This document shows positions 2,753-15,181 of a stretch of 64,000 bases of DNA, piece after piece. Each line of letters opens with the position of its first letter. Within the stretch, counting starts at the first letter, position 1. The notes under the pieces are model-generated. The model saw only the letters and a list, made by a program, of their open reading frames with translations. It was not told the DNA's origin and did not search any database. Position numbers and translations under genes: made by a program. The stretch lies in contig NZ_JABWQX020000007.1 in NCBI RefSeq assembly GCF_014268655.2, positions 1 to 64,000 on the forward strand, written 5' to 3'. The stretch comes from Pseudomonas marvdashtae. Its GTDB lineage: Bacteria; Pseudomonadota; Gammaproteobacteria; Pseudomonadales; Pseudomonadaceae.

Positions 2753-3498
2753 CAACCTTGCTCCTGAATCAAATCATTCAGCAGCGCTTCCCGAAGATTG
2801 TCCCGAGCACCCGCTTGCCGTACGTAGCGGCTGACTTTCAGTCGGAGATTGCTTTTGGGCCAAGCGGTAAACAGATACAGGTGTTCCTCTTCCAGCCACT
2901 GCATCAGGCCGTCCAGTGACACTGATGGGTTCTGCTTCGCCAATGCGTCAGACAAGTCCCTCGGCATCTCCCACCATGGCCAATCCCTCGCCGCCGGCAC
3001 TTTCCTGGGCGATGTCTCCAAGGGTTTGCCATTGATCAGATACCGCTCAAAGACCGGCAGCAGGTTTCCGGCTTCGGCGCCCAGGCCTTCAAGGATTTGC
3101 TGGAGGTATCGCCCATCCCAAAACCGGAAGAACACTTCATTGCCGTCCGGCATCTTTACTTGCGTAAGGCTGCGCAGGTGCGCCAGCACCGTTTCCGGCT
3201 CACAGCGGGATACCGCCAGCCAGCCCCAATCGAGGGCCTCGGTTTGTGCGATCCATGGCAAGAGCGCCGAGTCGGGTTCGAGCTGGGCGACATAGGGCAT
3301 CACTGGTTGCCAAGTGGCATAAGGTGTGTCGCCCCAGATGGGAAGCAATGGATGAGCGGGGCCGGACAGGCGAAAGGCTTTCATCGCATCTGATTCGCTC
3401 GCCGCGCTGATCACCAGATAAAGGTGCTCGTTTTCCTGCAGCGGCTGTTGGGCCAGCCATGCCACAGGATCGAGGGACATGAATGCCTGTGTTGCCAT
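2752..3498 (-). CDS. DUF4123 (Tap-type) type VI effector chaperone
   Basis: This 248-residue protein has the DUF4123 pattern: an N-terminal half with HLYLVISAASES and LPIWGDTPYA, and a central FFRFWDGRYLQQIL segment. Proteins of this family act in the cytoplasm and load a cognate effector onto the VgrG spike of the type VI secretion system. Its stop overlaps the start of the Rhs gene by one base, so the two are translationally coupled and it is very probably the loader of that effector. The start at 3498 has AAGGAAAG eight bases upstream. No VgrG gene lies in the window, so the spike partner must be encoded elsewhere. Confidence 0.85.
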   Translation of the reverse strand: MATQAFMSLDPVAWLAQQPLQENEHLYLVISAASESDAMKAFRLSGPAHPLLPIWGDTPYATWQPVMPYVAQLEPDSALLPWIAQTEALDWGWLAVSRCEPETVLAHLRSLTQVKMPDGNEVFFRFWDGRYLQQILEGLGAEAGNLLPVFERYLINGKPLETSPRKVPAARDWPWWEMPRDLSDALAKQNPSVSLDGLMQWLEEEHLYLFTAWPKSNLRLKVSRYVRQAGARDNLREALLNDLIQEQG

Positions 3499-3897
3499 TG
3501 AGGCTTTCCTTCGAAGGGGGGGAGGTCCGGGCTTTCACCCGGCGAAGACGACACTCAATCAAGGATCAAGCCAGGTTCTGCGAGGGCCCGTGAACCGGCG
3601 TTTCCGTGCGGTTTCAGACAGTTGAAGGCGGGGCGGCAGGGGATTCGGGCAAAAAATTGCCTGACAACTTGCGTAGTACTGCGTCAGATCTTGCGCATCT
3701 TGGTATGAGGAGGTTTCTTGCGGCGGTTTGCCTTGAATATCGGCGTTGCACAGACTGTTCTGCTGGCGAAAAGTCGTACTAGTGAAACTTTTTGCCCCGT
3801 TTCAATCTGGGCTTTAAATGCCTCAAATACTTTTTCATGGACGCAAATCCTGCACCTAATAGATTAGTCCGCTCAATGCAGTGGAGACCTATGAAAA
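3499..3897. other. Intergenic region between divergent Rhs and dioxygenase transcripts
   Basis: These 399 bases separate two divergently transcribed units and must hold both promoters. The half next to the dioxygenase is AT-richer (tract around 3770-3870). I found no RNA gene, long inverted repeat or convincing ORF. Confidence 0.5.
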
Positions 3898-4644
3898 ATG
3901 ATCGTTCTGAACAGGGAAGTGGGCGAAGCGCTAAGGCGTGACAAATACGTCAACGTCCGCGGTGGAGACTTCAACCTCTACGGTCATTTCGGCGACTTTG
4001 TCCGGCTGACCAAAAGCTGGGAAAACATGGAGCCCGACAGCTATTACGGCCAGGCCGAGTCAGGCATGCGTTTCCGCCGCTACAGCGATTTCGAATACAA
4101 CCCCACGACCCGCGAACTCAAGCAGCTTGAACACCGCGCCTATGTCCAGTCCAAAGCCAATAACAGCTACGTCGGCGGGCTGGAGCGACACTTCGAGGAT
4201 TTCTCCAACGAAGTGATCAATTCGCCCGTGATGCGCAGCCTGATCGACACGGACTTCGACGTATACAAAAACGTTCTGCCGCAGGAACTGCATGATGAAA
4301 TCTGGCAGTGCCAGATCCATCAGATCCGTATCGAGATCAAGCCGGGCAAGCAATTGGAGATCACTCCCGAAGGCATCCATTGCGATGGGTACCCTTTCAG
4401 TGGTGTGCATTTCTGGGGTCGCAATAACGTCGCTGGCGCGGAAAGCCGTCTCTACAGCGCCCAGGAAGAACAATTGGCGGCGACCACTTACGAGGACATC
4501 CTCGATACGACCTTTTTCCTTGATCGGGACATGCGCCACTATGTGACCCCCGCCCGCAACACCCACAGCCATGAAATGGCGTTCAGGCAAATCCTGGCGA
4601 TTTCGTTTTCGCGGCCCGGGACCGCTTTTGACATTGTTCGCTGA
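3898..4644 (+). CDS. 2-oxoglutarate/Fe(II) dioxygenase of the amino acid hydroxylase type (PF10014-like)
   Basis: The 248-residue protein has a jelly-roll iron triad: HCD at residues 161-163 (GIHCDGYPFSGVHFWGR) and a distal His in MRHYVTPA near residue 214, followed by a conserved ILAISFS strand. Length and motif spacing match the 2OG-Fe_Oxy_2 family, which includes the L-isoleucine 4-hydroxylase of Bacillus thuringiensis; members hydroxylate free amino acids using 2-oxoglutarate and O2. The substrate here is not known. The following GNAT and AzlC/AzlD genes lie on the same strand with overlaps, so an operon is likely. Start choice is uncertain: GGAG at 3883-3886 is 11 bases before 3898 but only 4 bases before an out-of-frame ATG at 3891 that opens a 16-codon ORF. 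Confidence 0.75.
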   Translation: MIVLNREVGEALRRDKYVNVRGGDFNLYGHFGDFVRLTKSWENMEPDSYYGQAESGMRFRRYSDFEYNPTTRELKQLEHRAYVQSKANNSYVGGLERHFEDFSNEVINSPVMRSLIDTDFDVYKNVLPQELHDEIWQCQIHQIRIEIKPGKQLEITPEGIHCDGYPFSGVHFWGRNNVAGAESRLYSAQEEQLAATTYEDILDTTFFLDRDMRHYVTPARNTHSHEMAFRQILAISFSRPGTAFDIVR

Positions 4645-4669
4645 ACAGCTCGAACCCATGGAGGACTCG

Positions 4670-5095
4670 GTGCCGCAGATCCTGTTGCGCCGAGCCATGG
4701 TCAGGGACGCCGAACGATTGGAGCAATTTTTTCGCGGTTTTGCCGAGGTGTCGTTCTGTGAATGGCAGGATGCGCGGTTCTTGCGTGGCGTGCTGTTGCA
4801 GGAAACCACCACCGCCTACATGGCTTTCGATGCGACGGGTGACGTCGTAGGCGCGGTCATCGGCGGTATGCTGGGCACTCGCGGGACAATCAATCACTTG
4901 GCAGTCAGCTCGAGGCATCGCACCCAAGGCCTGGGCCAGCGCCTGGTGGAAGCGGCATCCGCTGACATGAAACGGGTCGGCGTGCTGCGCATGTTCCTGT
5001 TTGTCGACGATACCAATCTGGCCGGCAAGCGCTTCTGGGCTGCCCAAGGGTTCTGTGAACCTCGGGGCGAAATCACTTTCGAGAGGGATCTATGA
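4670..5095 (+). CDS. GNAT-family N-acetyltransferase
   Basis: The protein shows the GNAT fold in order: an N-terminal strand (ILLRRAMVRDAERLEQFF), the beta4 strand INHLAVSSRHRTQGLGQRLV with the acetyl-CoA pyrophosphate loop RTQGLGQ, and the terminal GKRFWAAQGF helix-strand. I start it at GTG 4670 (141 residues) because GGAGG at 4660-4664 lies five bases upstream; ATG 4658 is an alternative. A longer frame back to 4571 would run into the dioxygenase gene by 74 bases and adds an unconserved arginine-rich stretch. Its stop overlaps the azlC start (ATGA). The substrate is unknown; given the neighbours, an amino acid or a hydroxy-amino acid is a reasonable inference. Confidence 0.82.
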   Translation: MPQILLRRAMVRDAERLEQFFRGFAEVSFCEWQDARFLRGVLLQETTTAYMAFDATGDVVGAVIGGMLGTRGTINHLAVSSRHRTQGLGQRLVEAASADMKRVGVLRMFLFVDDTNLAGKRFWAAQGFCEPRGEITFERDL

Positions 5096-5805
5096 ACAAG
5101 ACTTCCAGCCAGCCGCTGGCGGTCGAACCACAAGCCTCGCGAACCTTTGCTGAAGCCAGTCCGGTAGTAGCGGGTTATTTCACGGTTTCGTTTGTGTTCG
5201 GTCTGATGGCGGTCAACGCCGGGTTGCCATTGTGGCTCCCGGTGGCGATGTGCCTGTTCGTTTATGCAGGCGCCTCACAATTCGCGGCGTTGGCATTGAT
5301 CTCCAGCGGGGCGTCGTTGACTACTATTGTGCTCACCACGTTCCTGATCAATGCGCGCCACATGCTCATGTCGGTCTACATGGCCAAGGCCTTGCGGGCG
5401 TTGGGACTCAGTCGTTTCGAGCGCTGGTGCTACGCGGCGGGGCTCACGGATGAGTCGTTCGCCTTCCACAGCGTCAAGCTGGGCACCGGGGCACCGGTCA
5501 GTGTGCGCTACCTGATCGGTTTCAACCTTTTTTGCCACACGTCCTGGGTGCTGGGCGGCTTGTTGGGGGCCGTTTGTGCGCAATACGCGGCACACCTGAT
5601 CAAGTATCAGCTCGACTACGCCTTGACTGCCATGATGCTCTACGTGCTGGTTTCGTTGTGCAACACACGCAACAAGCTTATCGCGGCGCTGGCGGCAGTT
5701 ATCTGCATGGGCGCGCTGAGCCTGATAGGCAGCTCGCCATTCAACGTATTCATCGCCACGTTCGTTGGCTGCGGGGTGGGCGTATGCCTGACCAAACGTT
5801 CCTGA
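5092..5805 (+). CDS. azlC: AzlC-family amino acid exporter, large subunit
   Basis: This 237-residue membrane protein has the AzlC signature: FVFGLMAVNAGLPLWLPVAM, then FVYAGASQFAALALI, and INARHMLMSVYMAK. Several hydrophobic segments follow. AzlC with the small partner AzlD forms an inner-membrane exporter of branched-chain amino acids and their analogues (azaleucine resistance in Bacillus; the BrnFE and YgaZH systems belong to the same group). It overlaps the GNAT gene by four bases upstream and azlD by 22 bases downstream, so the three are probably co-translated. Placement behind an amino acid dioxygenase suggests that the exported molecule is the modified amino acid. Confidence 0.9.
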   Translation: MNKTSSQPLAVEPQASRTFAEASPVVAGYFTVSFVFGLMAVNAGLPLWLPVAMCLFVYAGASQFAALALISSGASLTTIVLTTFLINARHMLMSVYMAKALRALGLSRFERWCYAAGLTDESFAFHSVKLGTGAPVSVRYLIGFNLFCHTSWVLGGLLGAVCAQYAAHLIKYQLDYALTAMMLYVLVSLCNTRNKLIAALAAVICMGALSLIGSSPFNVFIATFVGCGVGVCLTKRS

Positions 5806-6101
5806 TCCTCGTCGTTGCCTTGATGATGGCCGTGACCTTCCTGCCCCGCGCCTTGCCGCTGCAGGTCAATACGGACAACTGGCCGCCGTTTGTCGCCCGT
5901 GCGCTGGAATACCTGCCGGTGGCGATCGTCGCCGCCATCAGCCTGACTCCGCTACTGATCAAGGACCAGCAGATACAGCTCGACCGTCCGGAGTTCTATG
6001 CCGCGATTCCGACGCTGTTATGTGCGTATTTCAGCCGCAACCTGTTTCTCAGTGTGGCGGTGGGCACGGCGGCGTACATCGCGCTCGGTTCGTTCCTGTA
6101 G
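5784..6101 (+). CDS. azlD: AzlD-family amino acid exporter, small subunit
   Basis: This 105-residue protein with about four hydrophobic segments has the AzlD pattern TFLPRALPLQVN near the N-terminus, LEYLPVAIVAAISLTPLLI in the middle, and AAIPTLLCAYFSRNLFLSVAVG. It is the partner of AzlC in the two-part exporter. ATG 5784 lies inside the end of azlC (22-base overlap). The last 84 bases (6018-6101) overlap in antisense the 3' end of the convergent LysR gene, which is a longer convergent overlap than usual. Confidence 0.88.
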   Translation: MPDQTFLILVVALMMAVTFLPRALPLQVNTDNWPPFVARALEYLPVAIVAAISLTPLLIKDQQIQLDRPEFYAAIPTLLCAYFSRNLFLSVAVGTAAYIALGSFL

Positions 6102-6941
6102 GGTCAGGTCGACGACATCGTGCAGCGCCTGGTCGGACAGCTCGGGATTGTTCACCGCCAGGCGTACTTCCAGGAAGTCCTCGAAGTCCGGGAATATCGC
6201 CAGTCCGTTGCGCATCGCCGCGTCCCGGGAGACAAGCCCCAAGCCGTCGAGCTGAGTGATCAAAGACAACGTCAGCGTTTCGCTGCAGGAGTAGATCATT
6301 CGCTGGCTCGGTCCGTACTCGCCGAGGCCCGCATCGAGGAAGCGCAGGAAACTGTGGGAATACGGACATTCTTCTGCCGGACGTACCTGGAATTTGTCGC
6401 CAAGCAGGCCAAGGGAATCGTCCTTGTCACCACAATGGGCGCCGACGACCTGCACCTGCACGCCCGGCATGGGGATGCTGGTAAAGCCATTTTGCTGCCC
6501 GATCAGGATCGCCAGGTCAAAATGCTCGTTCTTGAGCTTGCTCAGGTTCTCCATCGACTCGGCGTAACTGAACTCCAGTTGGTACTGGGGAAAAACCGCG
6601 ATCAGGCGATCAATTATCCGCCGGTTGAAATCCGCCGTCAGCGTGGTATTGAGCGCCACCTTCAGGCTGCGCTGCCTGGGCGTCTTGAGCGCCGCGACTT
6701 TTTCTTCCAGCTGTCGCGTGGCCGCCAGAACCTGATCCATGAACGGCGTCAGTTCAGAGCCTTGGCTCGTCAACGTCAGGCCTTTGTTCGAGCGTCGGAA
6801 CAACCGAAACCCGAACTGCTCCTCGACCTTGTTCAATTGCGCCGCCAGTGCCTGCACCGTGAGGCACGACTGTTCCGCTGCGGCCGACAACGAGCCGGTC
6901 TGCATGATGCGCATGAGGTTGCGTAAGGTTCTGCTATCCAT
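6018..6941 (-). CDS. LysR-family transcriptional regulator
   Basis: The 307-residue protein has an N-terminal winged helix-turn-helix (residues about 5-65; GSLSAAAEQSCLTVQALAAQLNKVEEQFG) followed by a typical effector-binding domain (LKVALNTTLTADFNRRIID onward). It is convergent with the dioxygenase-GNAT-azlCD cassette and overlaps azlD by 84 bases, so control of that cassette is possible but not shown by a shared promoter. The last 25 or so residues (ERTERDVRRRAHRHTEKQVAAEIRT) are unusually basic and lie in the overlap, so the C-terminus may be a recent run-on past an older stop. Confidence 0.85.
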   Translation of the reverse strand: MDSRTLRNLMRIMQTGSLSAAAEQSCLTVQALAAQLNKVEEQFGFRLFRRSNKGLTLTSQGSELTPFMDQVLAATRQLEEKVAALKTPRQRSLKVALNTTLTADFNRRIIDRLIAVFPQYQLEFSYAESMENLSKLKNEHFDLAILIGQQNGFTSIPMPGVQVQVVGAHCGDKDDSLGLLGDKFQVRPAEECPYSHSFLRFLDAGLGEYGPSQRMIYSCSETLTLSLITQLDGLGLVSRDAAMRNGLAIFPDFEDFLEVRLAVNNPELSDQALHDVVDLTLQERTERDVRRRAHRHTEKQVAAEIRT

Positions 6942-7280
6942 GAGGTAATGCCCTCTGCTTAAGTGGGCTCGCTGTTATTTATGCACCCGGCCCCGGCCTG
7001 GCGGGGCGATGGTCGCTATCATCAAGCACCTTGCCACGGTTGTCGCGGTTTTGTAGCGAAAAGCGCCGGCAGGCGATGATTGGAGCTTAAGTGGGATTTT
7101 CGGTTTCTGCTGGTTCGGCTTGTCTGTTGATACCGTTAATACAACGACAAGATGTTCCGTTGCAGCGAACCGGTCGGAAAATTATGGTTGCAGCTGTTCG
7201 CTTGCGAATTAAAACTTAAATTTTATACATATATGTACTACTCTCTACGCATCACCCAGTAACAAAGGAGCCCAAAGCTC
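6942..7280. promoter_or_regulatory. Divergent promoter region with a repeated GCTTAAGTGGG motif
   Basis: These 339 bases separate the LysR gene (minus) and the antitoxin gene (plus). GCTTAAGTGGG occurs at about 6957 and again near 7085 in the same orientation. The stretch 7200-7240 is strongly AT-rich and probably contains the toxin-antitoxin promoter. Function of the repeat is not known. Confidence 0.4.
7226..7237. promoter_or_regulatory. Palindrome TACATATATGTA, candidate antitoxin operator
   Basis: A perfect 12-base palindrome lies 43 bases before the antitoxin start inside an AT-rich promoter stretch. Xre/MbcA antitoxins usually repress their own operon at such palindromes, so autoregulation is inferred. 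Confidence 0.4.
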
Positions 7281-7691
7281 ATGGCGACTTCCTCCATCAA
7301 CCTCAGCGCCCAGCAACAACTGGATTCCCCGGATGCGGGTCGAGTCGCGTTGAAGTTTTTCTTCAATCTCATGGAGCTGTGGGGCTGCAGTGTCGAGCAG
7401 CAGCGCACGTTGTTGGGCAAAGTCGGAAATACGACCTTCTACAAATACAAACAATTGCCTGAAAACGTCAGGCTGCCGCGGGACACCCTCGAGCGTATTT
7501 CCTACCTCATGGGTATTCACAAGGCGCTGAGCATCATCTTCAGTAACAGCCGAGACCGCGTATATCAATGGGTCAGCAGCCCGAACACGGCGGCACCTTT
7601 CAACGGCCAGTCGGCGCTGTCGTACATGCTGGTGGGGCGGGTGGTAGACATTGCCGATGTGCGGCGATACCTCGACGGAGTGCGCGGTTGA
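7281..7691 (+). CDS. Xre/MbcA/ParS-type antitoxin
   Basis: This 136-residue protein has an N-terminal Xre-like helical DNA-binding part (FFNLMELWGCSVEQQRTLLG) and a C-terminal toxin-binding domain with LERISYLMGIHKALSIIF, RVYQWVSSPNTAAPFNGQS and the terminal VRRYLDGVRG. This is the standard antitoxin partner of RES-domain toxins, and the RES gene follows with stop and start sharing one base (TGATG). It should neutralise the toxin by covering its active site and repress the operon. Confidence 0.9.
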   Translation: MATSSINLSAQQQLDSPDAGRVALKFFFNLMELWGCSVEQQRTLLGKVGNTTFYKYKQLPENVRLPRDTLERISYLMGIHKALSIIFSNSRDRVYQWVSSPNTAAPFNGQSALSYMLVGRVVDIADVRRYLDGVRG

Positions 7692-8368
7692 TGACGCCAC
7701 CGCTGGCGGACCCGAAATGGAAGCGGGCCTATAGGATCGTCAACAGCAGCTTTCCGCCAATCACGCTGTTCGAAGATGTGCTTGACCCGGATGACCTGGC
7801 CACCGCCTACGCCCTGGAAGCCCTGACCAATGACCGGCTCATGGAAGAAGCCGGCGTGCTGTCCCGGGTACGCTCTGAAGATCGGGTCTCCGGTCCAGGT
7901 TCCTCGCCTGTGATGGCGGCGTTTACCCACATCGGTAAAAGCAGTCGCTTCAGCGATGGCACGTTCGGTGTCTATTACGCCGCCAGCAGCCAGGAAGCGG
8001 CCATTGCCGAGACGTGTTACCACCAGGCTCGGTTCTTGAATGCGACCAACGAGCCTGACCTGGAATTGACCATGCGCACCTACGTCAACCGCGTCGTCAA
8101 ACCCTTGCACGACATCCGCCACGATTATCCACACCTGCACAATCCAGACCCCACGGCCTACGGCCCGTCCCAGGTGTTCGCCCGGGAACTGCGCGCGACA
8201 TTGTCGTGGGGGCTTTTGTACAACAGCGTTCGGTTGCCCGGTCATGAGTGCGTCGCCGCTTTTCGACCGCCAGCGGTATCGATTCCGGTGCAAGGCAAAC
8301 ATATCCGCTACGTCTGGAGTGCCCAGAAGCGGGAGATTTCGTTTGTGTTCGAGGTGAATCGAGTGTGA
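7691..8368 (+). CDS. RES-domain toxin (NAD+-degrading)
   Basis: The 225-residue protein has the RES family hallmarks: Arg in KRAYRIV at the N-terminus, the FSDGTFGVYYAASSQEAAIAE region with the conserved Glu, and Ser in the C-terminal half (SWGLLYNSVRLPGHECVA). RES toxins bind NAD+ through the Arg-Glu-Ser set and break it down, stopping growth until the antitoxin is restored. I start it at ATG 7691, overlapping the antitoxin stop, rather than at 7568 where the frame remains open inside the antitoxin gene. Nothing suggests inactivation. Confidence 0.88.
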   Translation: MTPPLADPKWKRAYRIVNSSFPPITLFEDVLDPDDLATAYALEALTNDRLMEEAGVLSRVRSEDRVSGPGSSPVMAAFTHIGKSSRFSDGTFGVYYAASSQEAAIAETCYHQARFLNATNEPDLELTMRTYVNRVVKPLHDIRHDYPHLHNPDPTAYGPSQVFARELRATLSWGLLYNSVRLPGHECVAAFRPPAVSIPVQGKHIRYVWSAQKREISFVFEVNRV

Positions 8369-8407
8369 GGCTGAACGCAGAAAGTCTTGTTGTTCACGGC
8401 TTATGAA

Positions 8408-9565
8408 TCAAGTTGCCGCGATCAGCGCTTGTTCTTCCAGCCATAATTCCTGAACGAACGGATCAGTAATCGCGTAGATTCCATGCCCCCGACGCATGAT
8501 GATATTTTCGGCCACCAAGGCAATCACTACGGGTTGGATTTCTTCAATACGCACATCCCGACCTACGGCTTGAGAATATTCTGCTGCAGCGTCAACGGAA
8601 AAAATCCCGCGTGCATCCCCTGTCGTCGAGGCAATTTTGTTGAAGATAGCCTGAGCCAAACTGCCCAGTTGCTCTACCTTCTCAAGTTCAATATTTGCCG
8701 CGGCGGAACGCAAGGTACTGGCGATGACGGGCAAGAACAAATCCGGATCGCCCTCTTGCTGCAATATCTGCCTAAGGGCTTTAAGCATCTCTTCCGGGCG
8801 GTTGCCAAGTGTAGCGAATGCCTGGGTAGCGATATCAAGGGACGGCAATTTTTGCTGACTGACAGTCATCGCCAGGCGGTTTAGCAGGTACTCGACATAA
8901 TCGCCCTTCAAGACTGGATACGCCGTAGAAGTAGCTCCGGAGAAAGCCTGGTTACGTTTCGCTGTGAGTTCGCTGACCTGCGCTCGGTGAGAGCCGGTGC
9001 CGATGAACAGAAAGTAGCCCGGGGTATCGGGGCGGGGATTGATGGCGTCACGAGCGGCTTTCAGCGCGAGCAACATTTGATTGCCGTCTTCAGAGGCGAT
9101 CGCGTGTTGAACCTCATCGACGATAAGCACCAAATCAGTCTTGGTTTGATCAACCACTTCGGTGAATGCTTGCGCAAGCGTCGTGCCCCCGACGTCACCG
9201 ACTCCTTCAAGTTTGAACCCGAACTTGAACCCTGCCGCACCGATGTCGACGCCGCCGACCCGCTTGAATGTTTTAAGCAGGCCAGACGTAGGCGTTTGTA
9301 ATTCCTTTAATGTCTTGCGAACGGCGTCGTGCAGTAAGGTGGCCGGATTGGCGAGGGTATCGCTCCAAAGGTCGACGTAAATGACGAGCGCACCTTCCTT
9401 TTCCAGCGCCGGAATCAGGTCACTTCGCAAAAACGTGGTTTTACCGGTTCTGCGCAACCCGGACAGAAACAACCCGGAACGCAAGCCTTCGTCAAGAACC
9501 CCCGGATTGAGAAGCTGATTGGCCATGCTTTCAGCCAGTTCCGGACGCTGGAAAATGCTACTCAT
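8408..9565 (-). CDS. Orphan AAA ATPase with C-terminal winged-helix-like region
   Basis: This 385-residue protein contains Walker A (SGLRRTGKTTFLRSDL, about residues 35-50) and Walker B (DLVLIVDEVQHA, about 145-155). FLFIGTGSHRAQVSEL follows and is consistent with a sensor 1 strand. The C-terminal third is helical and ends in EENIIMRRG-like segments that resemble a winged helix, as in ORC1/Cdc6-like and archaeal-type ATPases. No enzyme domain is fused and no close partner gene is on the same strand; it converges with the RES toxin 39 bases away. It may belong to a defence or mobile-element system, but that is inference. Confidence 0.75.
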   Translation of the reverse strand: MSSIFQRPELAESMANQLLNPGVLDEGLRSGLFLSGLRRTGKTTFLRSDLIPALEKEGALVIYVDLWSDTLANPATLLHDAVRKTLKELQTPTSGLLKTFKRVGGVDIGAAGFKFGFKLEGVGDVGGTTLAQAFTEVVDQTKTDLVLIVDEVQHAIASEDGNQMLLALKAARDAINPRPDTPGYFLFIGTGSHRAQVSELTAKRNQAFSGATSTAYPVLKGDYVEYLLNRLAMTVSQQKLPSLDIATQAFATLGNRPEEMLKALRQILQQEGDPDLFLPVIASTLRSAAANIELEKVEQLGSLAQAIFNKIASTTGDARGIFSVDAAAEYSQAVGRDVRIEEIQPVVIALVAENIIMRRGHGIYAITDPFVQELWLEEQALIAAT

Positions 9566-9586
9566 GCAATTATCCTGTTTTATGGA

Positions 9587-9613
9587 TTAGCCATAATTAT
9601 TGCTGAGCCATAA
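9587..9613 (-). repeat. Direct repeat AGCCATAAT upstream of the AAA ATPase gene
   Basis: AGCCATAAT occurs twice, 18 bases apart start to start, between 9587 and 9613, just upstream of ATG 9565. It could be a binding site or part of overlapping promoter elements. Confidence 0.35.
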
Positions 9614-9736
9614 TCTAGCATAAGGTTCATCTCAGATAGGAGGCGAAACGTTTGCATGTTGACCAGGACGATTGGAAGGGCTGCAACGCAGCCGACAGAG
9701 GCGAACTCCCGTACCAATGGGCGCAGGCGCAACTGA

Positions 9737-11344
9737 TCAAATCTTGAACTGCTGCACCGAAGATTGCATTGACCCCGCGGCGTCATTCAACTCGTCTGCC
9801 GTGTGTTGCAGGTTGTGAATGGACAAAGTGTTGTCCCTGGATTGCGCTGCAATCGCTTCCACCCGCTGAGCCATTTCATCACTGGCCTTGGATTGCTCGG
9901 CGATGGTGTGGGAAATTTCCTCGACCACTTCCGCAGCATGCCGCGCACCGGTACGGATTTCGCTGATGGACACTCCGGCCTGCTGGGCCAGGTTCACGCC
10001 TTCGTCCACGCGGCTGACGCATGCTTGCATGTTCGCCACTGCATCCCGGGCGCTGGTCTGGATGCGTCCGATCATCGTAGTGATTTCCTGGGTGGATTGC
10101 GTGGTGCGGGCCGCCAGGTTGCGTACTTCATCGGCCACCACCGCAAAGCCGCGCCCGGCCTCACCGGCGCGGGCCGCTTCAATGGCGGCGTTCAGCGCCA
10201 GCAGGTTGGTTTGCTCGGCGATGCTCTTGATCACTTGGATGATCGAGTGAATGTCCTCGGAAGACGCATCCAGTGCGGTGATTTTGCCGGAGGACTGGTT
10301 GACCACCTCAGCGATCCGGTTCATGCCTTCCACCACGCCGAGAATCACCTGGCCGCCGCTGCTCGCCAGTTGCTCGGACTGCGCCGAAATCGTCCGGGCG
10401 CTGTCGGCATGCTGATTGATCTGGCTGATGTTGGCGATCATCTGCTCCATGCTCGCCGCCATGCTGGTGGCGCTGTGGGCTTGCTGGTCGGCGCTGGACA
10501 CAATTTGCCGCGCGGTATCGCCCAACGTGCGAGAGGTGCCATGCAAGCCATCGCTCTGACTGCGGATCGTCGCGATCATCTGCCGCAAGTTGGATTGCAT
10601 CTGCTCGATCACACTTTGCAGTTGCCCCAGCTCATCATCGCCATGAGCGCCCATTGAATGCTGCAAATCGCCTTGGGAAATCGCCTGGGTGTTGAGGATG
10701 ATTTTATTCAGCGGCGTGAGCACGGCTTTAAGCAGGCTCCACGACAACAGCGCCAGCGCCACGCAGGTCGCCAGCAACGTGACGATCAGCCAGCGTTCAG
10801 AAGTATGAATGCTGTGGTCCTGATGCTCGCGAGACGACTTCGCCTGGTCTTCGATCAGCTCGCTGACCGCCTCGTTGCGCTCCTCCAGGGCCTCAAAGGC
10901 CTTGTCGAACTCGGCCCGCAACGCCCGGCCATCCTGAGCGCCGCTCAGCGCCTTGCCAATCACCTGCTTGGCTGAAGCGATATAAGCGTCGGCCTGAGGC
11001 TTCAACTCGGCAATCGTCTGGGAAATCGTCCCCGGCAAACGAGCCTCGGCGTTCTCGGCGATCACCTTGCGCATCCGCTCCGAATGCTCATCGAATGCCT
11101 CGGTCACTTCCTTCGCGCCGGCGGCATCGCCTGGCGCAACCAGCAAAGCAGCCAACACATCGCCACGAATGGCGTCATGCATCATGTCCGCCTCCATGTG
11201 CTTGCGCATGGCTGAGATACTGGTCTCGTTCTGTGCCAAGGCGTCGATCATGGCGTTATAACCCCACAGCCCGATACCGCCCAGCAACAGGGCAAAAAAC
11301 AGACTGACCAACCCCGAACCTACAATCTTGGTGCGGATTTTCAT
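9737..11344 (-). CDS. Methyl-accepting chemotaxis protein
   Basis: The 535-residue protein has the order expected of a membrane chemoreceptor: TM1 at about 10-30 ([18 protein letters not shown]), a helical periplasmic ligand domain of about 150 residues, TM2 at about 185-205 ([21 protein letters not shown] without its last residues), HAMP, and a long cytoplasmic coiled coil. The signalling hairpin is clear ([31 protein letters not shown]). It lacks a C-terminal CheR-binding pentapeptide. I start it at MKIRTKIV (11344), which has AGGAG upstream; the longer frame to 11416 adds residues unlike a signal anchor. The helical-bundle sensor suggests small organic ligands, but the ligand is unknown. 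Confidence 0.93.
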
Positions 11345-11475
11345 CGTTTGCTGCTCCTGGAGCGGGGATTCTGGGCAAGTGTAGTTGAGCGCCAGCGGAG
11401 CCTTTGGACAGGCCATGCTCTTATTTGAGGGTATCGGCGGGGGAAAAAATTAGATGAATATCCACAAGCTCGGTG

Positions 11476-11530
11476 GACCATGAAACATGGTCAGCCCGTG
11501 GCGAGGGGCTTAGCGAAACGTCGCCACGGG
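11476..11530. repeat. Two adjacent inverted repeats
   Basis: GACCATG-AAA-CATGGTC at 11476-11492 is followed by CCCGTGGCGA...TCGCCACGGG at 11495-11530. A third hairpin, AATGCTGCC...GGCAGCATT, lies at 11560-11588. None has a T-run. The cluster lies between the chemoreceptor start and the end of the broken DUF3077 gene. Confidence 0.5.
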
Positions 11531-11599
11531 GTGTCCTTCCGTCCCTGCAGACGAAACTCAATGCTGCCGCGCTCAGCAAGGCAGCATTGCGCCAGCCGC

Positions 11600-11879
11600 T
11601 TAAGCCGGATTATTCCCCGGAGCTTCCAGCACCTTAACCACGTCATCAATGACGGCCTTGCTCATATCCTGCAAATAACACGACGCCCAGGCATACCGAT
11701 CCGCACCGCGAATCATCGCCGCGTCCTCGGCTAACAGCTTGGCAATGTGGAGCAGGTCGGAAGCGTGGGATAGGGCTTCGCCAAGGGGGGATGCCGCTGT
11801 TGACGCGGAATAGCGGGCGGTCGGAATGGTAGGAGAAGGGGGTTAGGCCTGGGGTTTTTAGGTCTTGCGGATTTGGCAT
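11600..11879 (-). pseudogene. DUF3077-type small protein, frameshifted
   Basis: From ATG 11879 (GGAG just upstream) the frame reads MPNPQDLKTPGLTPFSYHSD then RPLFRVNSGIP, a typical DUF3077 N-terminus. At a run of six C on the coding strand (plus positions 11785-11790) the conserved continuation LGEALSHASDLLHIAKLLAE then WASCYLQDMSKAVIDDVVK moves to the next frame and ends at TAA 11600. Removing one C would restore a single protein of about 92 residues. These small proteins are common in Pseudomonas and have no known function. Either the gene is freshly broken, slips at the C-run, or the assembly has one base too many. Confidence 0.72.
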
Positions 11880-12019
11880 TGTCTGGCTCCTTGACTGTAA
11901 GAGCCGCAACCGTCCTTTCCTACGGGATTGGGTCAGCAATCGTGGCGCGATGCTGGCAGCGTCCTTTCAGATCCCGGAAAATCAAAGCCAGGCATCTAGG
12001 CATTGGGAGTCCCATTGCC

Positions 12020-12081
12020 CCAGAAACAACAAAGCCCTCGCATTTCTGCGAGGGCTTTGTTTTGTATGGTGCCGGCACCAG
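12020..12081 (-). repeat. Direct repeat, distal copy (displaced tRNA-Thr 3' end plus terminator; attachment-site-like)
   Basis: These 62 bases match 14675-14736 with one difference (12044 against 14699). Read on the minus strand the copy contains the last bases of tRNA-Thr including CCA, then the terminator hairpin with stem AAGCCCTCGCA. This is the arrangement left when an element integrates at a tRNA 3' end and restores the gene with its own copy. The flanking gene-free stretches 11880-12019 and 12082-12250 show nothing else. Confidence 0.8.
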
Positions 12082-12251
12082 ACAGACGGTTTCTTGCTGC
12101 AAGGGTATGGGATTCGCGGGGCTGGAATTTGATGGATTTTCGGGCGTACCTCAAAGGGTCGCATAAATAAATCAGCTAGTTATGGCGTTTGGTGGAATCG
12201 AATCGGGAAGTATCTAAACCGGGTGGCCTTATAGCGCACCAAAAATCGAGA

Positions 12252-12270
12252 AGGAGGCCGAAGCGGCCTC
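12252..12270 (-). terminator. Hairpin downstream of the 48-residue gene
   Basis: GGAGGCCG-AAG-CGGCCTCC lies 20 bases after the stop of the small minus-strand gene and is followed on that strand by TTCTCGATTTTT. Confidence 0.6.
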
Positions 12271-12290
12271 CCCCCTTTTCCCTCTACCTC

Positions 12291-12437
12291 TCAGAAGTCA
12301 AAGGACAACTGTCCCGGCGGGCTACGGAAGTGATCGGTAACGTCTTCCCAGCGGCCGAAGCGGAAGCGCGGATAGCGACGGACGTAGACCGATTTGACGC
12401 GATTTGCCGGCGAACGGCGGTATTGTCTGGATGCCAT
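12291..12437 (-). CDS. Small basic protein, 48 residues, unknown function
   Basis: The ORF starts at ATG 12437 with AGGAGAT nine bases upstream and ends just before a terminator hairpin, so it looks like a real small gene. The protein is rich in Arg and aromatic residues (MASRQYRRSPANRVKSVYVR, then YPRFRFGRWEDVTDHF) and ends in LSFDF. It has no signal peptide or membrane segment. An RNA- or DNA-binding role would fit the charge but is only a guess. It is the first gene inside the tRNA-Thr element. Confidence 0.6.
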   Translation of the reverse strand: MASRQYRRSPANRVKSVYVRRYPRFRFGRWEDVTDHFRSPPGQLSFDF

Positions 12438-12603
12438 AGTGGCAGATCTCCTGTAGCTGTGTGGTGGCTGGAGAACTGCTCTTGGCTGGCCGGCTACGAC
12501 AAGCTTCCTTGCCACAGGCTGACACAGCTGATAGATTTCGAGCGCTAACCTGAAATCTGCAGAGCAGAGCAATGGCGCCAACCATCGCTTTTGTTTTTGT
12601 GTA

Positions 12604-12637
12604 AGGCCACTGAAGCGCCAACTTCAGTGGCCTTTTT
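12604..12637 (+). terminator. Strong hairpin with T-run
   Basis: AGGCCACTGAAG-CGCCAA-CTTCAGTGGCCT is followed by TTTT on the plus strand. No plus-strand gene is visible upstream, so it may end an unrecognised transcript or protect the downstream minus-strand genes from read-through. Confidence 0.65.
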
Positions 12638-12672
12638 CATTCGGGGTTACCCCTCGGGCTTAGTCATCCCCT

Positions 12673-13455
12673 CTATTCATCTTCAACTGCAAGCCGCTTT
12701 TCGACTTTTCTGAGCATCGCTTTCACGATGAGAAGGTCTTCCTCTTCGTTGATGACGATGAGCGAGTCCATCCCTGGACCCTTTATCCGTACTGTGAATT
12801 TCCCCTCGAGCTCCGGCTCACTGTGCCGATTATGTTCGAGGATCGGCTGGTTATTGACTGCTGGAGCGGAGCGGGTGGCCGATGTGGCGCTTGGCAGCGC
12901 TACTGTTTTTTCGATGGGCGCTGACTGTTCGCTGTCATCACCATTTTTTCCATTTTCGATCACTTCATTTGCTGCGTTTGGATGGGAACTGGACAGGACA
13001 TTGTCCTCTCCCAGTAGGCCGCATTGTTTCGCACCTTCGAGAAAGTAGCCTTCAACTCGAGAGGCGAACTGGTCAGGTACCCCAAACTCTCTGATCAAGA
13101 GCTTCTCGAAATGGGCCACGGGGAGCGTTTTGCTCTGGAATCGATCGTGAATAGCTCTGAAGAGTGGAGGCGAGAGAAAGGCCTTCATTCGGGCCTGCTT
13201 ACCCTCGTCCTCGTCATATGCAAGCGCTATATCACGAAAAAGTTGCGTAACCTTCAGTTGCCCCAATTTGTTGGTAATCAGTGAATACTTAACTGCGGCT
13301 CCAATTAAGCCTTTGAACGCTCCACTTGTATGCTGCTTGTTAAGCTTGTCTCCCGCCAAAGCTGAACTGCATTCGCCCCCAAGGTCGTTTACGGCTTGGG
13401 CGACTGCCAAACAGCTTTTCAGAGACGCCCTAGGGTAATCAATTTGCTTAGGCAT
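12673..13455 (-). CDS. Unknown 260-residue protein (possibly DUF5343-like N-terminal half)
   Basis: The start at ATG 13455 is supported by GAGGAGG about eight bases upstream; the longer frame to 13512 lacks a good site. Residues 1-150 are a compact helical region (YPRASLKSCLAVAQAVNDLG, GAFKGLIGAAVKYSLIT, HFEKLLIREFGVPDQFASRV) that recalls DUF5343, a match made from memory only. Residues about 165-215 are a low-complexity linker, and the C-terminal 45 residues (FTVRIKGPGMDSLIVINEEE) look like a small separate domain. It lies in the tRNA-Thr element, divergent from the BRCT gene. Function unknown. Confidence 0.7.
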   Translation of the reverse strand: MPKQIDYPRASLKSCLAVAQAVNDLGGECSSALAGDKLNKQHTSGAFKGLIGAAVKYSLITNKLGQLKVTQLFRDIALAYDEDEGKQARMKAFLSPPLFRAIHDRFQSKTLPVAHFEKLLIREFGVPDQFASRVEGYFLEGAKQCGLLGEDNVLSSSHPNAANEVIENGKNGDDSEQSAPIEKTVALPSATSATRSAPAVNNQPILEHNRHSEPELEGKFTVRIKGPGMDSLIVINEEEDLLIVKAMLRKVEKRLAVEDE

Positions 13456-13907
13456 GACCTGAGCCTCCTCTAGTGATGGCTGGATGGTAATTGAGCGGCC
13501 TTGGTTGCGCAAGAACTAGGAGTGCTAGATTTTGTGCTCTTATTTCTATCGGCGTGGCTTTTGACCTTTCGCTGCTTGCGGGTCCTGATCGCGAGGGGAG
13601 TCTGCGGATTTTTGAGGGGCTGGTAGTTGACGTCGCCGGCAAACTAAAGGCCCGTAGGCGCAAGGCGAAGGAACCTTAAGAGCCCCAATATGGACGATGT
13701 CGGAGCCCGCCTATGTGCTAAGCGCACATTAAACGACTGCCGCACCTGCGCGGAAAAAAGGGGACCGGAAAAAAGCGAAAAAAGGGGACGGATTTATTTT
13801 CTTATCAAAAAACGGGGTTCTGCGCGCAGGAATGCTAGGTTTGAACACACCATTCCTCAGGCAGCACCGCTTCAATGCCGGGCCAACACACCCGAAGGAG
13901 CCCCGTA
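13456..13907. other. Divergent intergenic region with a repeated A-rich/GGGGAC motif
   Basis: This 452-base stretch separates the unknown protein gene and the BRCT gene. At 13752-13800 the motif GGAAAAAAGGGGAC is repeated in near-tandem and runs into GGATTTATTTTC. Similar GGGGACGGATTTATTTT strings are scattered in Pseudomonas genomes, often near small transposase genes (recollection). No credible ORF was found. Confidence 0.4.
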
Positions 13908-14549
13908 ATGGACCTACACAACGAGTTCGAAAACAGCAAATTCTTTCACAACGCTCGTATTGATCGACGTGCTGCCGATGCCTTGGTCGGGCTGGCCGCT
14001 GGGATTACGGCCGACGGTGTCGTGAACGTCAACGAAGCGGTTTTTCTAAAGCAATGGTTGGAAAACAATCTCGCACATCTGAATGACCCGGTGATCAATC
14101 TGCTCTATTCGCGTTTGGCCTCCATGCTTCAGGACGATGCTCTGGACCCTGACGAAGCTCTTGAGCTGCTTAACATCCTGCGTAGTTTTTCTGGAGTAGG
14201 CATTGAGAAGTCGCAGGTCGGCGGAGCTATGGCTGTTGCTCCTACGGACCTTCCATTCAATTCACCGGCTCCTGGCTTGATGTGGGACGGCCGGTTGTTT
14301 GTATTTACAGGCGTAATGGCTTTTGGCCCGCGCAAAGATTGTCAGGCATTGGTCGAGGAGCGTGGCGGTTTGATTGGTGGTGGTGTGAGCAAGAAGGTGC
14401 ATTACCTGGTGGTCGGCAGCGTTGGTAATGAGCAGTGGCGCCACAGTACTTACGGAACGAAGATTATGAAGGCAGTGGAGCTGCGGGAGGCGGGGGCTTC
14501 GATTGCGATTGTGGGTGAGGACCACTGGCAAAAGATGCTGTTTGGTTGA
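13908..14549 (+). CDS. BRCT-domain protein with TerB-like N-terminal helical domain
   Basis: This 213-residue protein starts at ATG 13908 with AAGGAG nine bases upstream; the frame continues to 13875 without support. Residues 1-100 are helical and include GLAAGITADGVVNVNEAVFL, which resembles TerB-type sequences. Residues about 128-210 form a BRCT domain of the DNA-ligase type (GRLFVFTGVMAFGPRKDC, GVSKKVHYLVVGS, KAVELREAGASIAIV). Such single-BRCT proteins occur on mobile elements and next to exonuclease-like proteins; the activity is not known. It is the last gene before tRNA-Thr in the element. Confidence 0.8.
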   Translation: MDLHNEFENSKFFHNARIDRRAADALVGLAAGITADGVVNVNEAVFLKQWLENNLAHLNDPVINLLYSRLASMLQDDALDPDEALELLNILRSFSGVGIEKSQVGGAMAVAPTDLPFNSPAPGLMWDGRLFVFTGVMAFGPRKDCQALVEERGGLIGGGVSKKVHYLVVGSVGNEQWRHSTYGTKIMKAVELREAGASIAIVGEDHWQKMLFG

Positions 14550-14619
14550 GATTGCTTCCGTCGTGGTGTTCTAAAAGATTGCCCATCTTGGCCGAAAGAT
14601 TTTCGGTGGGTTGACGGCC

Positions 14620-14648
14620 TCATCGCGAGCAAGCTTGTTCCCGCAGGT
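14620..14648. repeat. REP-like sequence
   Basis: The bases TCGCGAGCAAGCTTGTTCCCGC match the Pseudomonas REP core (gcgagcaagct-type). It lies between the BRCT gene and the attachment-like repeat. Confidence 0.5.
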
Positions 14649-14674
14649 TTCAGCATGGGGTAAAAGTGGACGGT

Positions 14675-14721
14675 CCAGAAACAACAAAGCCCTCGCATCT
14701 CTGCGAGGGCTTTGTTTTGTA

Positions 14722-14736
<15 letters not shown>
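14675..14736 (-). repeat. Direct repeat, proximal copy, overlapping the tRNA-Thr 3' end and its terminator
   Basis: This copy contains the last 15 bases of tRNA-Thr plus the downstream hairpin with stem AAGCCCTCGCA and loop TCTC. It pairs with 12020-12081. Confidence 0.8.
14687..14716 (-). terminator. tRNA-Thr terminator
   Basis: Inverted repeat AAAGCCCTCGCA...TGCGAGGGCTTT directly downstream of the tRNA on the minus strand, followed there by TGTTGTTT. The second copy lies at 12032-12061. Confidence 0.7.
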
Positions 14737-14797
<61 letters not shown>

Positions 14798-15181
14798 GTG
14801 TGGGCGACGATTATAGCGATTGGGTGGTTTCTGTAAACCCCTGAATTCTGACTATTTTTAAGTAAGCCGCTGATCCTGGATGCAATTGCGGATGGGCGGT
14901 GTTTGCGGGGTGCGAAAAGTACGGCTGCTCGGTGCTAGCGATAAAGCGGAAAACTCACGTTCCGTTCCAATAAAACGCGCCTTTATATCGGTTTGTCCCG
15001 GCGCTTATGCACAATCGACACAACCCCGCCGGCCGCAATTTTCAATTTTGTGACAGCCTTCTCGTCCAGCCGCAAATACCTGTTTTCATGGTTTTTTATC
15101 CATGTGAACAAAAAATGAACAGCTTGGAAACGGTCAGGAAATTACGGTTTCGTTGGATCCAGGGCTATTTCATCAACAGAG
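14798..15181. other. Intergenic region upstream of tRNA-Thr
   Basis: These 384 bases must contain the tRNA promoter. One DnaA-box-like TTATCCACA occurs near 15181 but is isolated. A plus-strand 78-codon ORF (15007-15243) has no ribosome site or recognisable family. Nothing else is visible. Confidence 0.45.

Follow-up and report, generated by a model that had tools for sequence, protein, structure and literature searches.

A probable composite, integrase-stripped island beside tRNA-Thr(TGT) in Pseudomonas marvdashtae

The window analysed here is a 64,000 nt stretch of Pseudomonas marvdashtae DNA (contig NZ_JABWQX020000007.1, positions 1 to 64,000), in which a long direct repeat encloses a small group of genes beside an intact tRNA-Thr(TGT) gene (14722..14797, minus strand, located by ARAGORN). 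The two plus-strand copies of this 62 bp repeat, referred to below as attachment (att) copies, are identical at 61/62 positions and have a spacing of 2655 bp. Because of where the tRNA gene lies, the proximal copy (14675..14736) consists of the final 15 nt of the tRNA and 47 nt downstream containing the terminator hairpin; repeat comparison and a genome search place the same hairpin and 15 nt of tRNA-Thr 3′ end in the distal copy (12020..12081). Inside the distal copy is an inner left-end arm (12082..12211, plus strand), found by BLAST and att-flank alignment to be of a type, A, that is common to islands with an integrase of the P4int488 type. Two cargo genes from the list of open reading frames (ORFs) follow on the minus strand: bas48 (12291..12437), which encodes a basic protein of 48 aa and is contained in a longer listed frame, and hel260, which encodes a protein of 260 aa for which a model was predicted (12673..13455). 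A BRCT segment then begins, on the plus strand, with a left end that is constant in comparisons across loci (AAAAAAGGGGACGGATTTATTTTC, 13778..13801). It carries a BRCT-family gene, recognized from its ORF, Pfam and NCBIfam (13875..14549; 224 aa, or 213 aa from an ATG at 13908), and a 3′ flank (14600..14674) that adjoins BRCT in relatives too and includes a stretch that we take to be like a repetitive extragenic palindromic (REP) sequence.

A search of the whole genome (5.9 Mb, 18 contigs; E up to 0.001) with the repeat gave four matches, which are both copies and the reverse complement of the hairpin at the same sites; with two copies genome-wide, the repeat is not a general duplicated terminator. 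Pfam identified no recombinase domain among the bas48, hel260 and BRCT proteins, and integrase genes of relatives used as tblastn queries had no match across the window's first 16.5 kb (E 1e-3). An earlier, sequence-only reading of this DNA had described a 62 bp direct repeat with one mismatch, covering the tRNA 3′ end plus the terminator and enclosing genes for a BRCT protein, an unknown helical protein and a 48-residue basic protein without a recombinase, and this observation is confirmed.

The same site was surveyed in 35 genomes of the genus by reading 4 to 18 kb on the island side of tRNA-Thr(TGT); L-numbers below denote loci or stretches fetched (84 in total), G-numbers denote genomes, and L143 is P. 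frederiksbergensis SI8. A second att copy (at least 35 nt, 0.6 to 13 kb farther out) was present in 9/35, a P4-type tyrosine recombinase (P4int) within 350 bp of the tRNA in eight, and BRCT within the stretch read in four. Neither att copy nor P4int lay in the stretch read for 24 of the 35, and in G008 the att copies are 30-44 kb out, beyond that stretch. This variation in att and P4int fits the earlier suggestion of a hot spot; the relatives differ, rather than all carrying the same three genes and both repeats. Intact islands begin at the tRNA with P4int, followed by p126, a second recombinase (Int1; Pfam Integrase_1), p98, cargo and, last, the far att.

The ends of these islands bear on how the 62 bp repeat is to be understood. 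On the tRNA side of the eight P4int genomes, the match to the window repeat extends over 17-20 nt in six and is below threshold in two, while the far att copy, present in 6/8, spans 58-62 nt. In L057 the arm follows a bare GGCACCAG and the terminator is absent there; L056 has no far att copy within its stretch. In L178, a contig from IMG/VR with all these island genes, the match beside the integrase is 15 nt long; its far end carries a 62 nt copy (90%) together with arm A. Since the tRNA side is short and the far copy is 58-62 nt, the integration core is short and the terminator usually travels to the far end. The integrase-bearing islands thus appear usually to have some 15-20 nt in common with the tRNA side and a terminator copy at the far end, and the claim that the 62 bp are exactly what a recombinase leaves behind is not supported. 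In L044 and L056 the integrase frame, which has the same orientation as the tRNA, begins 27 bp past it, compared with 161-173 bp in six other loci, and therefore transcription of the tRNA may read into P4int in these two loci if the terminator is displaced.

Alignment of 23 att flanks separates two types of inner arm, A and B. The window arm, of type A, matches that of L057 at 89% identity over 123 nt (E 1e-40); the L057 integrase frame has 90% identity to P4int488. The arms of L044, L109 and L148 are 74-78% identical to the window arm over 89-123 nt. Arm A occurs in 13/84 stretches (window counted), in 13/13 directly after the GCACCAG of the att core. It is paired with P4int488 in 4/4 loci where it occurs with an intact integrase, L109 being the source of both queries. 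For arm B, which was identified in the alignment by eye, the partner is P4int448 in 5/5 loci; by BLAST, the arm B queries matched L043 and their own two loci only. In the stretches read for L056 and L116, an integrase is present and an arm is absent. As judged from these alignments, what the window retains is the left end of a type of island that bears an integrase: it has a far att with arm A next to it, and the p126, Int1 and p98 genes are absent. Because there is no P4int488 integrase beside its tRNA, the window is regarded as a derivative of a type A island, not as a member. The proposal of a decayed island is consistent with this picture, in which relatives vary at the site, the type A left end is kept and the integrase is gone.

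The right-hand part of the locus has a different affiliation. The assignment of its gene to the BRCT family comes from a weak Pfam match (E 0.0028, below the curated cut-off) and from NCBIfam matches (E 2e-5 to 3e-10) to the BRCT end of models for polymerase III epsilon and DNA ligase, none of which reach the whole-protein cut-offs. PADLOC gave a partial match to the candidate family PDC-S48 (E 7e-6), and the match to GapS2 is weak (E 0.0026, far under the cut-off). The predicted structure was poor, with a predicted local distance difference test (pLDDT) score of 58, and was not used. In a literature search on BRCT and defence, none of the papers listed mentioned a BRCT domain. Homologues occur in 62/398 genomes of the genus (E 1e-10). 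Among full-length homologues of at least 87% identity, an att copy follows 80-135 bp downstream in 13 of 14 other genomes, L114 being the exception, and att after BRCT is also found at loci without a visible second att copy. A second long att copy lies beyond BRCT within the stretch in eight of these 14 genomes, with a decayed one in another (L046). With att copies downstream in 13/14 close homologues, BRCT is not ordinary cargo; the terminator half of the 62 bp repeat belongs with the BRCT segment. More distant homologues (59-69%; 14 fetched, L125-L138) occur in different surroundings and are accompanied neither by these integrases nor by the motif described below; four of them are near tRNA-Ser(tga), so BRCT is not tied to tRNA-Thr or to these islands in general. 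Eight matches in viral contigs may come from chromosomal DNA misfiled as viral. Decay of BRCT in place also occurs, since around 10001-10060 of L161 and L162 only the final 19-20 BRCT codons match ahead of att.

The left end of the BRCT segment is marked by a motif, GACRGATYTATTT, which follows a purine tract approximately 115-135 bp ahead of the BRCT start and is clear in 13 of the 20 loci compared. In seven loci with recognizable island DNA left of BRCT, the homology to islands ends -14 to +3 bp from the motif tract. The island part abutting the tract is P4int in L111 and L112, the second recombinase in L105, L107 and L143, p98 in L110, and arm A in L108. Across the aligned loci, the BRCT segment starts at the same left end, and the island remnants that it adjoins in relatives vary. 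In L110, three consecutive att copies (3035-10333 of the oriented stretch) have BRCT between the first two, and this series is a tandem of modules. L109 has the motif 17 bp ahead of the BRCT start, with the usual upstream stretch missing; the motif is absent in L035, L113, L148 and L153, has no clear copy in L106, and is degenerate at most in L046 and L160. The motif was also considered as a dispersed genome repeat and rejected as such, with four places (up to two mismatches) vs none for a backward control; visual inspection of the reading frames at the three other sites revealed no gene in common. No related report of the motif sequence was found in the literature.

Comparison with SI8 points to movement of this segment between species. 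Over 13778-14824 the two genomes differ by 7 substitutions and 1 indel (99%), with no similarity left of 13778; right of the segment, 200 bp bins are 67-92% identical, and bins across 8408-11808 are 67-91% identical. Because of this 99% identity against flanks of mostly 67-92%, the segment is taken to have moved recently between the window lineage and SI8. Among 153 pairs (18 genomes), window and SI8 are the top outlier, with BRCT 99.3% identical vs 80.1% for a neighbouring ORF of 417 aa. The fit of this pairwise test is poor (r 0.38; window-SI8 +2.67 standard deviations, lowest pair -2.66), and the claim of exchange is therefore carried by a tree test and the sharp ends. In the BRCT tree, window and SI8 are joined (100/100), and in the tree of the 417 aa ORF, SI8 groups with L105 and L107 (99/98). 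A window plus SI8 clade is rejected for that ORF by the approximately unbiased (AU) test (p 0.009), the pair having been chosen for the test after its identity was seen. Together, trees and segment ends show a recent interspecies exchange of the BRCT segment. The BRCT 3′ flank that SI8 has left of its far att matches those of L105 and L107 at 95-96% (57-59 nt) and its own near copy at 88% (51 nt). SI8 seems to have lost a native BRCT and received a foreign segment.

We consider it probable that the locus is a composite, integrase-stripped island at a tRNA-Thr(TGT) hot spot; this confidence applies to the reading as a whole, and we are less sure of the route. A type A island with a P4-type integrase, a second tyrosine recombinase and cargo would formerly have occupied the tRNA-Thr(TGT) site, of which the left end (att copy and inner arm) and two cargo genes would remain. 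The integrase end would have been lost; for this locus the loss is deduced from the shared left arm and from relatives, because the window holds no integrase remnant. The cargo would now be joined to a segment of approximately 1 kb, comprising the constant left end, the BRCT gene, the terminator and the tRNA 3′ end. If segment exchange was responsible, one end may have recombined homologously within the tRNA and the other may have been joined at the 24 bp motif. The tRNA would thereby keep its terminator, the cargo should be frozen in place, and it may have been retained for a benefit such as defence. Either route, later arrival of the segment or entry of an island into an older BRCT mini-element, should fix the cargo.

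The second of these routes has a substantial, if minority, share in the composite reading. It supposes an old att-BRCT-att mini-element at the tRNA; an island would have entered its left att, and the island's integrase would later have been deleted up to the BRCT left end, which gives a composite without segment exchange. L108, arranged as att, approximately 85 bp of arm A (47 nt at 87%), motif, BRCT and att, is in keeping with this, as are a decayed att copy just left of BRCT in L046 (77% over 48 nt) and one seen by eye in L160. The left flank of the window also resembles DNA left of BRCT in L036 (81% over 269 nt, 89% over 35 nt), but the same stretch matches inside the L036 island too. No complete P4int lies left of BRCT at any locus read, and SI8, with a kin-type BRCT flank at the far att and a window-like segment at the near att, makes exchange necessary. 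Near-identical att copies, a retained arm A and a missing integrase would also suit a live 2.6 kb unit whose att copies and cargo excise together through an integrase provided in trans, as the sequence-only reading had contemplated. This is improbable, since that unit was seen in no other genome examined and the sole full-length hel260 relative in the genus and family genomes searched (G824) has no bas48, tRNA or integrase of these types in the 20 kb around it. In addition, the recent transfer spans only the right 1 kb, and the single resident P4-type homologue (E 1e-10) has 31% identity and is at the tmRNA. Local duplication of the tRNA end and terminator, with no island, has nothing for it besides the repeat itself and is hardly credible, given that the arm beside the distal copy is that of integrase-bearing islands.

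Several observations weigh against the composite reading. No integrase remnant was found by tblastn within the window's first 16.5 kb, and no close strain was seen with an integrase-bearing version or an empty site. The motif is clear at just 13/20 BRCT loci and was not found in L116-L119, whose four BRCT homologues (75-78%) are located at tRNA-Thr. L114 has a weak match to p98 (58 nt), which ends 59 bp before the motif tract. L036 has 62 nt at both ends, yet its island retains the second recombinase, and the flank argument for SI8 depends on less than 60 nt. A bolder version of the composite reading, in which the segment of approximately 1 kb from motif to tRNA is a moving cassette that lands repeatedly on islands, removes the integrase and fixes often-defence cargo, with the motif as an active left end and the att core as the right end, is speculative and rather unlikely.

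The two remaining genes of the locus are rare. For hel260, 171 homologues were found in 5.8 billion proteins. Besides its own gene there are three weak partial matches in 398 genomes of the genus, none in 321 genomes of the class, and one full-length relative (G824, 47%) in 398 genomes of the family. The 20 kb around the G824 homologue contain no bas48, tRNA genes or these integrases, with one 25 nt partial att match, and no hel260 relatives were found in plasmids, phages or viral contigs. The hel260 model (mean pLDDT 81) predicts a folded N-terminal part with weak winged-helix matches, a disordered linker and a small C-terminal beta-alpha part. No match to the PDB was obtained at E 0.001, and for this reason no function is claimed; regulators and methyltransferases predominate among the best matches (E 0.024 and up; template modelling (TM) scores to the query of 0.18-0.24). 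Searches of PADLOC, Pfam and NCBIfam gave no match for hel260, and no known anti-phage family was established among hel260 and BRCT, the two proteins covered by PADLOC. For bas48, seven protein clusters were found in 5.8 billion, the best six 80-98% identical; one cluster without a listed source is probably the window's own. Contigs of sizes 6307666 and 4904 occur in the homologue lists of both proteins, and hel260 and bas48 may therefore be linked. Both may be among new defence genes.

In relatives, the DNA between far att and BRCT varies, and the cargo of the site, in picked examples rather than a survey, is varied and often defence-like. PADLOC was run on 10 hand-picked cargo proteins, and eight had matches at E 0.01: RT-protease (L115), HEC-06 (L111), LmuA (L112, partial), PDC-M70A (L105), SoFic (L106), a retron I-B type reverse transcriptase (RT) and ATPase-Toprim (both L107), and PDC-S15 (L143). 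A 661 aa protein of L143 and a 671 aa protein of L036 had no PADLOC match. For the cargo genes of L112 and L036, a far att left of BRCT was not seen. In L108 no cargo separates BRCT from the far att. An Abi_2 protein (Pfam) is encoded beyond the two att copies of that locus and has homologues in L035, L036, L065 and L110. By eye, the cargo of L110 is non-defence-like, with regulator, oxidoreductase and methyltransferase genes.

Comparison with known systems places the locus among remnants of integrative elements. Like the cis-mobilizable elements (CIMEs; PMC5704250), which are att-bounded, have lost integration genes and lie in accretion hot spots, the locus has att sites at both ends and no integration genes by Pfam and tblastn. 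Pfam identified no transfer genes among the three window proteins, and conjugative ancestry was not searched for. The element may be described as a CIME-like remnant, with the difference that its right end is a BRCT-terminator segment. pHS87b of P. aeruginosa is a P4-integrase element at a tRNA-Thr gene; it retains its integrase, has free and integrated forms and a 45 bp att (PMC4739549), whereas the present locus is without an integrase and has other cargo. The literature listed for tRNA-Thr islands included pHS87b and nothing that describes the present hot spot for the P. fluorescens group. The I23, I44 and I55 islands of P. fluorescens SBW25 likewise combine predicted defence genes with a tyrosine integrase located at an RNA gene, but they target tmRNA with a 14 bp repeat, contain alpA and an integrase, and are 23-55 kb long (PMC12595487). 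Prophage 05 of P. fluorescens Pf-5 is also a 2.6 kb remnant with direct repeats (84 bp) at a tRNA gene; it differs in its tRNA-Cys target, a truncated integrase that is retained and a phage tail gene (PMC2647930). Core defence hot spots of P. aeruginosa share a fixed chromosomal site and exchangeable defence genes, and are defined by flanking core genes (median 6 and 26 kb) instead of an att site (PMC10250203).

In a wider context, mobile islands may become fixed host loci when the integrase end is lost and a neighbour gene of the tRNA replaces it, apparently several times within one genus. Where a tRNA is bordered by a long att-like repeat, a single integration need not be the source of that repeat. 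The hot spot is also a place to look for new defence genes.

Other features were noted around the locus and elsewhere in the genome. An ATPase gene (8408-9565, minus strand; Pfam AAA_22) lies 5 kb from tRNA-Thr in the window, past a frame that by eye is chemotaxis-receptor-like, and approximately 190-245 bp from tRNA-Thr in L048, L113, L114, L118 and L160; the hot spot may extend to this gene. A small gene at 11618-11880 (minus strand), presumably DUF3077-like, is conserved in relatives and by eye is frameshifted in the window. The window's genome also carries, beside tmRNA (G000:C1:732842-735473; L167, L168), a homologue of Int1 (73%), the only one genome-wide (E up to 1e-5), together with the P4-type homologue (31%), and this tmRNA locus is possibly an I55-like island.

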